Below, one piece after another: positions 36 to 64,000 of a DNA stretch of 64,000 nucleotides (its first letter is position 1; the number at the start of each line of letters is the position of its first letter). Where the stretch lies: assembly GCA_029964075.1 (NCBI GenBank), contig CM057130.1, forward strand, positions 1,550,001-1,614,000, given 5' to 3'. The notes under the pieces are model-generated. The model was not told where the DNA came from. It saw only the letters and a program-made list of their open reading frames with translations, and did no database searches. A program made the position numbers and the translations under genes. Source of the stretch: Patiria pectinifera. Lineage: Eukaryota > Echinodermata > Asteroidea > Valvatida > Asterinidae.

Positions 36-140
36 TTCTGTCAGTATTTGGATTTCGTCTTCCAAGCGGGCTATTCTCTCTTCAGACTCATGTAGTCTCC
101 GGGTCAGCCGTCGATTCTCCCGATGTTCACGTTCGTACAT
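36..140 (-). CDS. Coiled-coil exon of MYPT-tail-like gene
   Basis: A 105-nt exon, 35 codons, phase 0, acceptor AATAAACAG and donor GTACAT. It encodes MYEREHRENRRLTRR, then LHESEERIARLEDEIQILTE. Heptad spacing of Leu/Ile and abundant Glu/Arg show a coiled coil. It resembles the vertebrate MYPT coil (LYEQILAENEKLKAQLHD) more than by chance: aromatic Tyr-Glu start, ENRRL/ENEKL, then LH. If the donor is not used, the frame runs on for six residues to a stop at 15-17 and this would be the last exon. Continuation to the left of base 1 cannot be seen. Confidence 0.75.
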
Positions 141-3918: not shown

Positions 3919-4078
3919 GACTTGAAGCCAACCTTCGTGAGCGTATCCTGGAGACTTCGCTACTACTGCCATTGGCTGACTCATCATCCCTGATGGGCGT
4001 GGCTTGCCGCCTGTGAGTGGGGGTCTGCAAAAATAAAGTTCAAAAAGAGAATGGTGAATTCTTGCAAGAGGTACAGTG

Positions 4079-15111: not shown

Positions 15112-15222
15112 CTCATAGGAATTAGTTGTTCCATTGTGATCGTCTTTCTTTGTACCGGTAATTTCCTCATTGTAGTCTGTGTTGGCTTTGACATTCGCTG
15201 TAGCGTTAGTAGTATCTTCATC
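15112..15222 (-). CDS. Second exon, acidic Asn/Thr-rich linker
   Basis: A 111-nt open segment of 37 codons, phase 0 at both ends, with acceptor ATATCCAG and donor GTATGA. It encodes DEDTTNATANVKAN, then TDYNEEITGTKKDDHNG and ends TTNSYE. Gene 1 has a comparable acidic exon directly after its TGV motif (NEDESEDS), so order and character match although identity is low. It is not independently recognisable; the case rests on splice sites, phase, and fit between its neighbours. The donor is a good GTATGA and the exon stands out from the AT-rich intron by balanced codon-like composition. Confidence 0.7.
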
Positions 15223-21497: not shown

Positions 21498-22833
21498 GCC
21501 CCAAGCTGTTTTATCTTCAACCCACATTGCTAACAAACTTGACTTTGGGCTTGACCAAAAAGTTTGACTGCAGTTTAGATGATTATATAACTCAGTGTCT
21601 CACACTTTGTCGGTCAGTCATTCAGTTAGACAGTGACCAGTCAGTCTGAGGACATTGGAATGACGCCTCAGATCCAGCAAATATCATTTGAGGGGGTGCT
21701 TTAAGCTCTTGGGTGCTTCGAAGGAGCAAACCCTGCACAGGAACCAAGGATAGTATCCTTTTGCAGGACAAACAAGACGGGAGGGCTTTGAGCTAAACCA
21801 GTTTATAACTTTAATCCAATAGACCGGTAGAATGGGATCTCTAATGTTATTGGCAGCACTCTCCTGAACTCCTCCTGAGGTCTATTAGAAGTCTCAAACC
21901 AAATATATATTTGGCTGGTTTTGTGTGCCAGGATACCATCTTTACATATCCCGCACTTGGCACCACATGGGCATCAATTAAAGGGGGACTGCATGAACTG
22001 CAAGTATGTGAGTGGGTGGGTGTGAACATTAATTTTTCCACAAATATATACTTTTTACATGTGGAACGTTATTGTACCTATGACATGAGGTAACGGTGGA
22101 GAGAATCAATGCTGGTCAATGGTCACAATTTTCTCCAGAAAAATTTAGCAAGGGCCACTCTGAAGTTATCCAGAATGTACAGTGAGCACTACAGGAGCAA
22201 TACTTTTCCGGTACCCACTAGCTAGCGTCTGTTCACAATTGCTCCCCCCCCCTTCACCACCATCCGCCCCCCCCTTTTCACAAGCGCATGCCCTCAACGT
22301 ACAGATACATCTCAGCATGAAACCCAATGCATGAAGTCACATCTGAGGTCACATGGTCATATTACAGTCTAATCTGACTGATTGCTGTCAAGTTGCTGTA
22401 AAAATAGAAAAGGGTAAAAGGGTACACGCAATTTGAATTTTCAGTCAATGGATGGCTCAACCAAATTTAAATCACCAGTCACTGTAATAACTAATATTTT
22501 GTTAAATTAAAAAAAATGATTTTTTTTTTTTTACTTGGAGAGATGTACACATACCCGGCCCTAAGTACAGGCACGCAGGAAATATTTATCCAATTTATAC
22601 TTCCATATATTCATGAATATATTACTAATTAGTAATTAGCAATGACTGGTCATCAATGAGGTTTAATACAATGAGGTGAGATAAACTTTGTTAGGATATT
22701 ACATTTTACACAAACATTAATTACTTTGGCAGTTGCCCCCCCCCCCCCCCCCCTCCCGTGTGACGTTACTGCCCAGCTGCCCAGCACAACATCGGTTTAC
22801 ACAAAAACGCTTGATTTCTAATTCAATACCCAC

Positions 22834-23172
22834 CTGTAGCACAACAACACCCGTGCCCCGTCTCTTTTCCCGGGTTTTCCTCTGAGCAAACCTTCCGGCT
22901 TTGGACGTTTCCGTGCCTTTCTTGTCCTTCAATCTCCGGCCTCCGCCACCAGCGGCCCCGCCGGCCGCACCGCGGCTGTCTGCATCGGCTTCCCCGGGCG
23001 ACCCGGCGTCTGCACCGGTGGCTGCCGCTCGCTCCCTGCGCCGGGCAGCTACCCGGCTCTCGCCGGCTACTTCCAACTTTGATGAAGACCCAGGCGATGC
23101 GTCCAGATTATCTGCTTCCCCGTTGTTCTCGGGACTGAGCCTGCCACGCCTTCTGGCTCTGTAATCCGCCAT
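22834..23172 (-). CDS. First exon, MYPT-tail-like small protein
   Basis: A 339-nt, 113-codon exon starting at ATG in context CAAGATGGCG, with an in-frame TGA seven codons upstream (23194-23196), so this is the real start. It begins MADYRARRRGRLSPENNG, then has an Ala/Gly/Arg/Glu-rich low-complexity middle (residues about 40-80), and ends AGRFAQRKTREKRRGTGVVVLQ before a GTGGGT donor. The REKRRGTGV motif matches vertebrate MYPT1 REKRRSTGV around Thr853, with Gly replacing the Ser before Thr. GC and CpG content is far above the surrounding DNA, consistent with a promoter-proximal exon. Function is inferred: a PP1 regulatory or dimerising small subunit. A proline-rich open frame on the opposite strand is a shadow. 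Confidence 0.85.
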
Positions 23173-35414: not shown

Positions 35415-35501
35415 TCATTTGGACAGCTTGCTTATGACTCGTACTAAAGCGCCGTTCTCGTCCTTGAGACGCTGGTTGTCTGACTTCAGTTGCTCCATCG
35501 C
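35415..35501 (-). CDS. PPP1R12A: MYPT terminal exon, leucine zipper and stop
   Basis: The final coding exon: acceptor TTCTAG, then 28 codons and TGA at 35415-35417. The protein starts AMEQLKSDNQRLKDENGALV and ends RVISKLSK. Vertebrate MYPT1 ends ENGALIRVISKLSK, so this is the true C-terminus. Leucines at exon residues 5, 12, 19 and 26 are spaced exactly seven apart, giving a four-repeat leucine zipper. Known: in vertebrates the zipper-positive isoform responds to cGMP-dependent kinase, and a 31-nt alternative exon shifts frame to remove it. I see no equivalent switch exon in the 486-bp intron before this exon, but a short one could be missed. Confidence 0.97.
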   Translation of the reverse strand, partial: AMEQLKSDNQRLKDENGALVRVISKLSK

Positions 35502-36841: not shown

Positions 36842-36991
36842 CCTCTTTTCGTTATCAACTGATTTTGTGTCGAATCGATCAGACTTCTGCTGGGATTTTT
36901 CCACCTGCATCTTCAGCTCGGCGACCTCCAGGTCACGCTCTTTGACCTGGTCCTGGAGCTTTGTGACCAGCGACTTTTGTTCGTCGAATAG
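36842..36991 (-). CDS. PPP1R12A: MYPT coiled-coil exon
   Basis: A 150-nt exon of 50 codons, phase 0 at both ends, acceptor TTTAG and donor GTAAGG. It reads LFDEQKSLVTKLQDQVK, then ERDLEVAELKMQVEK, ending DTKSVDNEKR. It aligns with vertebrate LYEQILAENEKLKAQL and LTDLKLQLEKATQ, the C-terminal coiled coil that mediates dimerisation and contacts with partners such as PKG and RhoA (family knowledge). Regular hydrophobic spacing is visible: Leu at 1, 8 and 12, and Leu/Val through residues 21-30. Confidence 0.95.
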
Positions 36992-53585: not shown

Positions 53586-53809
53586 CTCTTCATCAATGTA
53601 AATGACGCCCGTGGCGCGTCGCCGCTCTCGCGGACGGCGTCGCGAGATGGTGCTGTGCTTCTTGGGCGACTTGTCGTCGTCGTCTTTCTCTTTTTCCTTC
53701 TCGCGTTCCCTCTCCTTCTCCCGTTCTTTCTTCTGGCGTTCCTGCTCTTGCTGCATGCGCTCTTTCCGGGCGTTCTCTCGTCGCTCTTTCTCCTTGGCCT
53801 CGTCGGTGT
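53586..53809 (-). CDS. PPP1R12A: MYPT exon with charged helix and second Thr motif
   Basis: A 224-nt exon, entered in phase 1 and leaving in phase 0, with acceptor CTCTCAG and donor GTATGT. It begins TDEAKEKERRENARK and continues as a dense Glu/Lys/Arg run of about 40 residues likely to form a single charged helix. After DDDDKSPKK it ends RRRPRERRRATGVIYIDEE. Family knowledge: RRRPREKRRSTGV in vertebrate MYPT1 holds Thr853, the second ROCK site. The Thr and basic run are conserved here, but the residue before Thr is Ala instead of Ser, so the PKA/PKG site that normally sits beside it is absent. The motif makes the assignment certain. Confidence 0.95.
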
Positions 53810-61892: not shown

Positions 61893-62298
61893 CTGCAATT
61901 TTCACGCAAAAAAAATAATAAAAGTGGGTTACTGATTAACACACTGCAGAAATGTAGGCAGTAATCTGTACACACAACTTTTACCTTAATCTGTATAAAG
62001 CCTTAATGAAATTTGAATTTTTCTTTAAATTTACTATGGCTCTACTAGAAAACAAAACGACAACTGGACTGATAGAGATGTGATGCAGGCAGCTGTTTTG
62101 TCGGGGTATAACGATCCAGAACCAGACAATTTCAGCAAATCACAACAGAAAAGTTGTGACATACGACACAAATCCTGCTTTACCGACAGTACATGATGGG
62201 AACAAGTTGAGATTCCTTCTTAGACAATGCCACATGGTAATCAATTTAAAATCAATGACGAGGACTCCTTAGTTTTTTCATGTTTCGCACAAAATCGG

Positions 62299-62394
62299 GG
62301 ATGGACTTGGGATGGACTTGGGATGGACTTGTGATGGACTTGGGATGGACTTGGGATGGACTTGTGATGGACTTGTGATGGACTTGGGATGGAC
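62299..62394 (+). repeat. 11-bp tandem repeat GATGGACTTGG
   Basis: Eight full units of GATGGACTTGG or GATGGACTTGT plus a partial one. Same word as the larger array 150 bp away, but with no inverted ends of its own. Confidence 0.95.
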
Positions 62395-62529: not shown

Positions 62530-63355
62530 CAGTGTTGTAGTCGAGTCCATCACAAGTCCATGCGAACAAGTCCATGCACAAGTAAATCAAAAGTCCATAA
62601 TTTACAAGTCCAGTCACAAGCAACAGGAGATGAACAACGACAACGGAATGCCCTTGTCAATGTTCATCTGAATAACTTGTGACTTGACTTGAGACTGGGT
62701 GACTTGTGATGGACTTGTTAGGACTTTGAGGGACTTGTTAGGACTTTGAGGGACTTGTTAGGACTTGGAAGGACTTGTGATGGACTTGGAGGGACTTGAA
62801 GGGACTTGTGATGGACTTGTTAGGATTTCGAGGGACTTTTGATGAACTTGAAGGGACTTGTGATGGACTTGTTAGGATTTGGAGGGATTGTGATGGACTT
62901 GTGAGGGACTTGTGATGGACTTGATAGGATTTGGAGGGATTGTGATGGACTTGTGAGGGACTTGTTAAGACTTGGAGGGACTTTTGATGAACTTGAAGGG
63001 ACTTGTGATGGACTTGTTAGGATTTGGAGGGATTGTGATGGACTTGTGAGGGACTTGTGGTGGACTTGTAGGACTTGGAGGGACTTTTGATGAACTTGGA
63101 GGGACTTGCGATGGACTTGTGATGGACTTGTGAGGGACTTGTGATGGACTTGTGATGGACTTGTTAGGACTTGGAGGGACTTGTGATGAACTTGGAGGGA
63201 CTTGTGATGAACTTGTTAGGATTTGGAGGGACTTGTGATGAACTTGGAGGGACTTGTGATGAACTTGTTAGGATTTGGAGGGACTTGTGATGAACTTGGA
63301 GGGACTTGTGGTGGACTTGTTAGGACTTGTGAGGGACTTGACTACAGCGCCGATG
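62530..63355. repeat. TIR-bounded GGACTTG minisatellite
   Basis: The left edge reads GTTGTAGTCGAGTCCATCAC and the right edge, on the other strand, CTGTAGTCAAGTCCCTCAC. The left 90 bp carries the array as CAAGTCC, the rest (62680-63345) as more than fifty copies of GGACTTG(T/G)GA(T/G)-type units arranged in higher-order blocks. It is both a potential large foldback and a minisatellite. Confidence 0.8.
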
Positions 63356-63839: not shown

Positions 63840-63930
63840 CTGAGTTGATCTTCGTGATGATCTTTCCCTCTTGGCTCGGACTCTACGTTGCGTTTCAGAC
63901 TCCTCGTCCTTGGCTGGTGTCATGTACGAC
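63840..63930 (-). CDS. PPP1R12A: MYPT exon with first inhibitory Thr motif
   Basis: This 91-nt exon has a polypyrimidine tract and AG acceptor just above 63930 and a GTAAGG donor just below 63840. It opens with one base completing a codon from an upstream exon outside the window, then 30 codons. The protein begins SYMTPAKDEESETQRR and ends SSRRSTQ, where the final ACT CAG precedes the splice. Family knowledge: this matches the vertebrate segment around Thr696, the main ROCK-phosphorylated site that turns the phosphatase off, with the Ser before it being the PKA/PKG site that protects against inhibition. Both Ser and Thr are kept here. It is the most upstream exon of gene 1 that I can see. Confidence 0.95.
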
Positions 63931-64000
63931 CTAAAAAAAAAAGTGCAGCCAAACATTTACTTACTGTACACCGCAGGGTAAAATAAGGGAGGAGGAAAAC

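Follow-up and report, generated by a model that had tools for sequence, protein, structure and literature searches.

The window analysed here, a stretch of 64,000 nucleotides of Patiria pectinifera contig CM057130.1, holds the tail of one gene and most of a second, both on the minus strand and in tandem. The upstream gene (gene 1) is a MYPT, complete down to a tail of its own. Its ankyrin exons lie to the right of the window, at 107.0-84.4 kb in window coordinates and before the tail, where strong matches to a human MYPT1 sequence were found among the best 25 matches listed; the best of these exons is 69% identical to that sequence. The remaining gene 1 features fall inside the window:

63840-63932, minus strand: gene 1 MYPT segment RSYMTPAKDEESETQRRVRAKRERSSRRSTQ with the Thr696-type site (coordinates give the matched stretch, not the exon limits)
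53586-53809, minus strand: gene 1 MYPT exon with RERRRATGV, the Thr853-type site (ends read by eye)
36842-36991, minus strand: gene 1 MYPT coil exon, 50 codons
35988-36038, minus strand: gene 1 MYPT coil exon, 17 codons
35415-35501, minus strand: gene 1 MYPT last exon, 28 codons plus stop, ending in RVISKLSK

The Pfam family PF15898 (MYPT PKG-interacting domain, cut-off 32.4 bits) gave eight listed matches in the genome, only one of which, the last exon of gene 1, exceeded the cut-off. A genome search with the gene 1 tail returned its three exons and one weak match; having a single MYPT is what would be expected of an invertebrate, vertebrates having three. The second-best PF15898 match (G000:C19:535415-535582, locus L003; 22.2 bits, profile positions 2-56) is below the cut-off and could be another MYPT-like coil or a chance match. 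Between the MYPT exons there is also a tandem array at 62701-63340, in which a 52-base unit (also read as 21 or 31 bases) is repeated about 12.7 times. A smaller one, at 62298-62394, has an 11-base unit. The skew of G over C is strong there.

The downstream gene (gene 2), in our reading a probable PAWR gene, is made up as follows:

22834-23172, minus strand: gene 2 exon 1, 339 nt, 113 codons, ATG at 23172, phase 0 donor CTACAG/gtgggt at 22834
within exon 1: basic REKRRGTGV site, with Thr107 as the counterpart of human Par-4 Thr163 and MYPT1 Thr853
15112-15222, minus strand: gene 2 linker exon of 37 codons, both ends in phase 0 (ag/GATGAA...TATGAG/gtatga)
3933-4024, minus strand: candidate additional linker exon, TPTHRRQATPIRDDESANGSSSEVSRIRSRR, with an acceptor in phase 0 (ends read by eye)
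36-140, minus strand: gene 2 coiled-coil exon, 35 codons, phase 0 (ag/ATGTAC...ACAGAA/gtacat)
-2733 to -2819 (G000:C2:1547181-1547267), minus strand: gene 2 last exon, 28 codons plus stop, the end of the coil

Several features of gene 2 had been recognised in the original prediction and are borne out here. An in-frame TGA precedes the ATG of exon 1, which terminates in REKRRGTGVVVLQ and contains REKRRGTGV; the linker and coiled-coil exons are open and join to it in phase 0 in silico. The gene has its own start and the same orientation as the MYPT gene, and no ankyrin exon is found among its four exons. The last exon, 2.7 kb to the left of the window, was found in flanking sequence of the same genome. 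On predicted splicing, the four exons join in silico with all introns in phase 0 and no stop to give a product of 213 residues, comprising a basic N-terminal part with an NLS2/SAC-type site (QRKTREKRRGTGVV), in which Thr107 is conserved within RRGTGVV, and a C-terminal coiled coil with a leucine zipper. A phospho-site and a zipper like those of MYPT are both present, as had been proposed. This product is a minimal model: exons may be missing, and its linker is much shorter than that of human Par-4. The candidate linker exon at 4.0 kb was left out of the model as unproven, its likeliest donor (by our judgement) not being in phase 0, and a match at 6.1 kb (DPIRPLIGRASSYTYL) was dropped because its frame holds only 25 residues between stops.

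The 5′ end of gene 2 is CpG-rich, again as predicted: the 400-bp window at 22801 contains 35 CpG with an observed/expected ratio of 1.02, where the respective medians are 8 and 0.57; 35 CpG is reached in four of 1018 such windows (400 bp, step 200), that one included. Across 204 kb read in six frames, the pattern R[ED][KR]RRxTGV has two occurrences, one per gene. Searching the genome with gene 2 returned its four exons and one weak match (E 5.6), with no second copy seen. For the 113-residue exon 1, 43 pattern matches were obtained in the Viral_contigs set, none of them related.

Sequence comparison indicates that gene 2 is very probably the PAWR (Par-4) orthologue of P. pectinifera and not an undescribed gene. 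With three exons only, the best hint in the PDB was PAWR at E 0.61, and these exons alone matched no Pfam family. When the fourth exon was included, the joined C-terminal part (123 residues) found the rat PAWR coiled coil (5fiy) as its best match among 177,635 distinct PDB sequences at E 1.5e-7, the next being at E 0.62. The alignment to 5fiy covers 59 residues free of gaps and stops two residues short of both C-terminal ends. This gain on adding an exon, together with four exons whose splice sites share one phase and which contain no stop, makes it extremely unlikely that we are dealing with chance open reading frames or a pseudogene.

Because the PDB is uneven between the two families (the human MYPT1 tail found a single MYPT chain in it, 5huz, 48 residues of coil), we also compared the 63-residue gene 2 coil with human PAWR and MYPT1 by local alignment with 2000 shuffles. 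The two human sequences used were checked in part against solved structures: over 99 residues PAWR matches 5fiy with an E of 4.2e-45, and MYPT1 is identical to 5huz at 48 of 48 residues. The coil scored 129 with human PAWR (z 13.7; no shuffle as good), 68 with human MYPT1 (z 4.7; two shuffles as good) and 63 with the tail of its own MYPT neighbour (z 3.7; five shuffles as good). The PF15898 profile points the same way. It gave 92.7 bits for gene 1, 131.3 for human MYPT1, 17.5 for human PAWR and 12.2 for gene 2, so that gene 2 falls short of MYPT membership just as human PAWR does. The description of gene 2 as a MYPT-tail-type gene is not supported: by the 5fiy match, the coil scores and PF15898 alike it is closer to PAWR/Par-4.

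The same results bear on the relationship between the two genes in this genome. On the original prediction, gene 2 would be a free-standing competitor that arose in this lineage by partial duplication of the MYPT tail and has no relation to PAWR. The two genes do have in common an REKRR-x-TGV-type site, a tandem position and a last exon of 28 codons in phase 0. A recent local copy should, however, most resemble its own MYPT, and the gene 2 coil resembles mammalian PAWR far more than it does that MYPT (129 versus 63). A separate PAWR elsewhere would favour such a duplicate, but the genome search with gene 2 found none, and the PAWR-MYPT neighbourhood is present in vertebrates too. We consider this reading highly improbable. 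It is still harder to credit that gene 2 represents MYPT transcripts from an alternative promoter, as M20/M21 does for vertebrate MYPT2: although the strand is the same, the position downstream and the site and zipper similar, gene 1 runs into a stop of its own at 35415, 12 kb short of gene 2 exon 1, and it is the gene 1 tail that scores 92.7 bits with PF15898, the tail of gene 2 being separate.

The assignment to PAWR rests mainly on the coil, because the REKRR site scores similarly for both families. Taken alone, this site of gene 2 scores 60 to human PAWR (GRFAQRKTREKRRGTGVV versus GQIEKRKLREKRRSTGVV, with none of 2000 shuffles as good), 49 to human MYPT1 and 58 to its own MYPT. Searched exon by exon, human PAWR found three gene 2 exons at E 0.002 to 0.05, and the joint best match (0.002) was the Thr853-type exon of gene 1. 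Beyond the coil and the REKRR site, no alignment of gene 2 to PAWR was seen. A Pfam search of human PAWR gave no PAWR model among its matches; the matches of gene 2 are of coil type and all below cut-off, the best being CCDC22_CC at 20.6 bits (cut-off 39.2). By inspection, the 213-residue product has neither the ELNNN motif, the VASA motif of mammalian Par-4, nor EEPD. According to PMC7790818, EEPD is the caspase-3 site of Par-4 and the human protein has 340 residues. We treat both motifs as features of mammalian Par-4 that do not define the PAWR family.

The position of gene 2 agrees with this assignment. It adjoins the MYPT gene as its 3′ neighbour, in tandem and on the same strand, and in human PAWR and PPP1R12A are both on the minus strand. 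PMC3040176 describes a human SNP as intergenic, lying between PAWR and PPP1R12A and belonging to a linkage block that holds PAWR and its upstream region, and PMC11727018 gives the tilapia gene order as RPS16, PPP1R12A, PAWR and SYT1A, beside MRF4. Order and orientation in P. pectinifera thus agree with the vertebrate arrangement, an adjacency that we regard as supportive of PAWR but not defining. The original statement that no described gene of this layout was known to its author is likewise not supported, since PAWR has been described and lies beside PPP1R12A in both human and tilapia. The 12-kb gap between the two genes contains 63 open reading frames of at least 60 residues, of which the six longest matched no Pfam family, a search that could miss shorter exons.

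Synteny beyond the PAWR-MYPT pair is weak. Part of a SYT1 sequence gave 41 matches in the genome, 18 of them on C2, the contig of both genes and one with many synaptotagmins. Five exons at 58 to 90% identity form the set closest to SYT1, on C2 at a distance of 7 Mb, whereas the single match with the highest score (57%) lies at C2:1885241, about 0.3 Mb to the right of the window. For myogenic bHLH (PF01586) just two matches are listed in the genome, G000:C2:23165884-23166102 and 23229510-23229569, both also on C2 and 21.6 Mb away; in vertebrates, myogenic bHLH genes are neighbours of PPP1R12A/PAWR (PMC11727018). LIN7 was not identified by an L27 search, whose three matches are on C20, C16 and C2 (at 14.5 Mb). 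The left flank holds plus-strand open frames between about -66.1 and -52.0 kb whose appearance, judged by eye, is that of a Q/P-rich gene of BRO1 type (HD-PTP-like), among them a 1097-residue frame at -55308 to -52018, and on the minus strand at -14409 to -15392 a frame of about 328 residues resembling, by eye, a rhodopsin-type G-protein-coupled receptor.

Gene 2 is a real gene that the earlier reader saw correctly and very probably named wrongly, so that a named orthologue takes the place of an undescribed gene class. The idea of a duplicated MYPT tail remains plausible, with the difference that it would explain the origin of PAWR itself and not an event in this lineage. On balance, and with the odds only slightly in its favour, the sequences lead us to suggest that PAWR originated in a pre-vertebrate animal ancestor by partial tandem duplication of the MYPT tail, and that the pair stayed adjacent in the same strand and order. 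The 'padlock' would then be an interaction between paralogues, in which a detached phospho-site and zipper still pair with their parent. The shared REKRR-x-TGV-type site, the 28-codon phase 0 last exon and the adjacency fit such an origin. The last exons of both genes have exactly 28 codons and are entered in phase 0; the exons with the RRxTGV site both end in phase 0 after it, within two codons of each other; and the PF15898 match of human PAWR falls at profile positions 73-101, the stretch of the MYPT last exon. Against this, that match is weak (17.5 bits) and the weak match of gene 2 lies elsewhere, at positions 4-68. Scores between the coils of the two families are modest (human MYPT1 versus human PAWR z 4.7; the sea star MYPT versus human PAWR z 3.6), and the other coil introns of gene 1 and gene 2 do not coincide. 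Across the two lineages compared, the similarity of the MYPT and PAWR coils is weak, and coils converge easily. No statement of this origin was found in the literature searched, to which Vetterkind 2010 did not belong, and priority is not established. The suggestion offers a testable idea of how the tumour suppressor Par-4 originated and what underlies its binding to myosin phosphatase.

The role of MYPT partner or competitor that had been put forward for gene 2 already exists as a published proposal for Par-4. Par-4 regulates cell death as well as myosin phosphatase: it induces apoptosis and binds MYPT1, WT1 and atypical PKC. PMC4819215 presents the 'padlock' model of Par-4 on MYPT1. According to PMC6910671, when human cells phosphorylate Par-4 at Thr163 the interaction with MYPT1 is disrupted and MYPT1 sites are exposed; the same source notes that operation of the padlock in vascular tissue has been questioned. 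By analogy with mammalian Par-4, the gene 2 zipper would homo- or hetero-dimerise and bind MYPT, its product might shield the inhibitory Thr sites of MYPT as a padlock, and ROCK-type kinases could phosphorylate the conserved threonine (Thr107 here, Thr163 in human) to release it. Expression of gene 2, MYPT binding and phosphorylation are what we infer here; the gene structure, the sequence relationship, the threonine and the adjacency are in silico results.

Among known systems, M20/M21, the small subunit of myosin phosphatase and a product of the vertebrate MYPT2 gene, resembles gene 2 in being an ankyrin-less MYPT-tail-like protein. It differs in coming from the MYPT2 gene itself, whereas gene 2 is predicted to be a separate gene with its own tail. 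With the tail of MYPT1/PPP1R12A (PF15898) gene 2 shares the REKRR-x-TGV-type site, the zipper and, in this genome, the 28-codon phase 0 last exon, but it scores 12.2 bits against a cut-off of 32.4, lacks ankyrin repeats and does not end in RVISKLSK. Relative to PAWR/Par-4, the linker of the gene 2 model is shorter, the EEPD caspase site and ELNNN motif are absent, and Gly replaces the Ser before the conserved Thr. Gene 2 nevertheless has in common with PAWR/Par-4 the basic NLS2/SAC-type site with REKRR-x-TGVV, the want of ankyrin repeats, the place as 3′ neighbour of a MYPT gene, and both the register and the C-terminal end of the coil.
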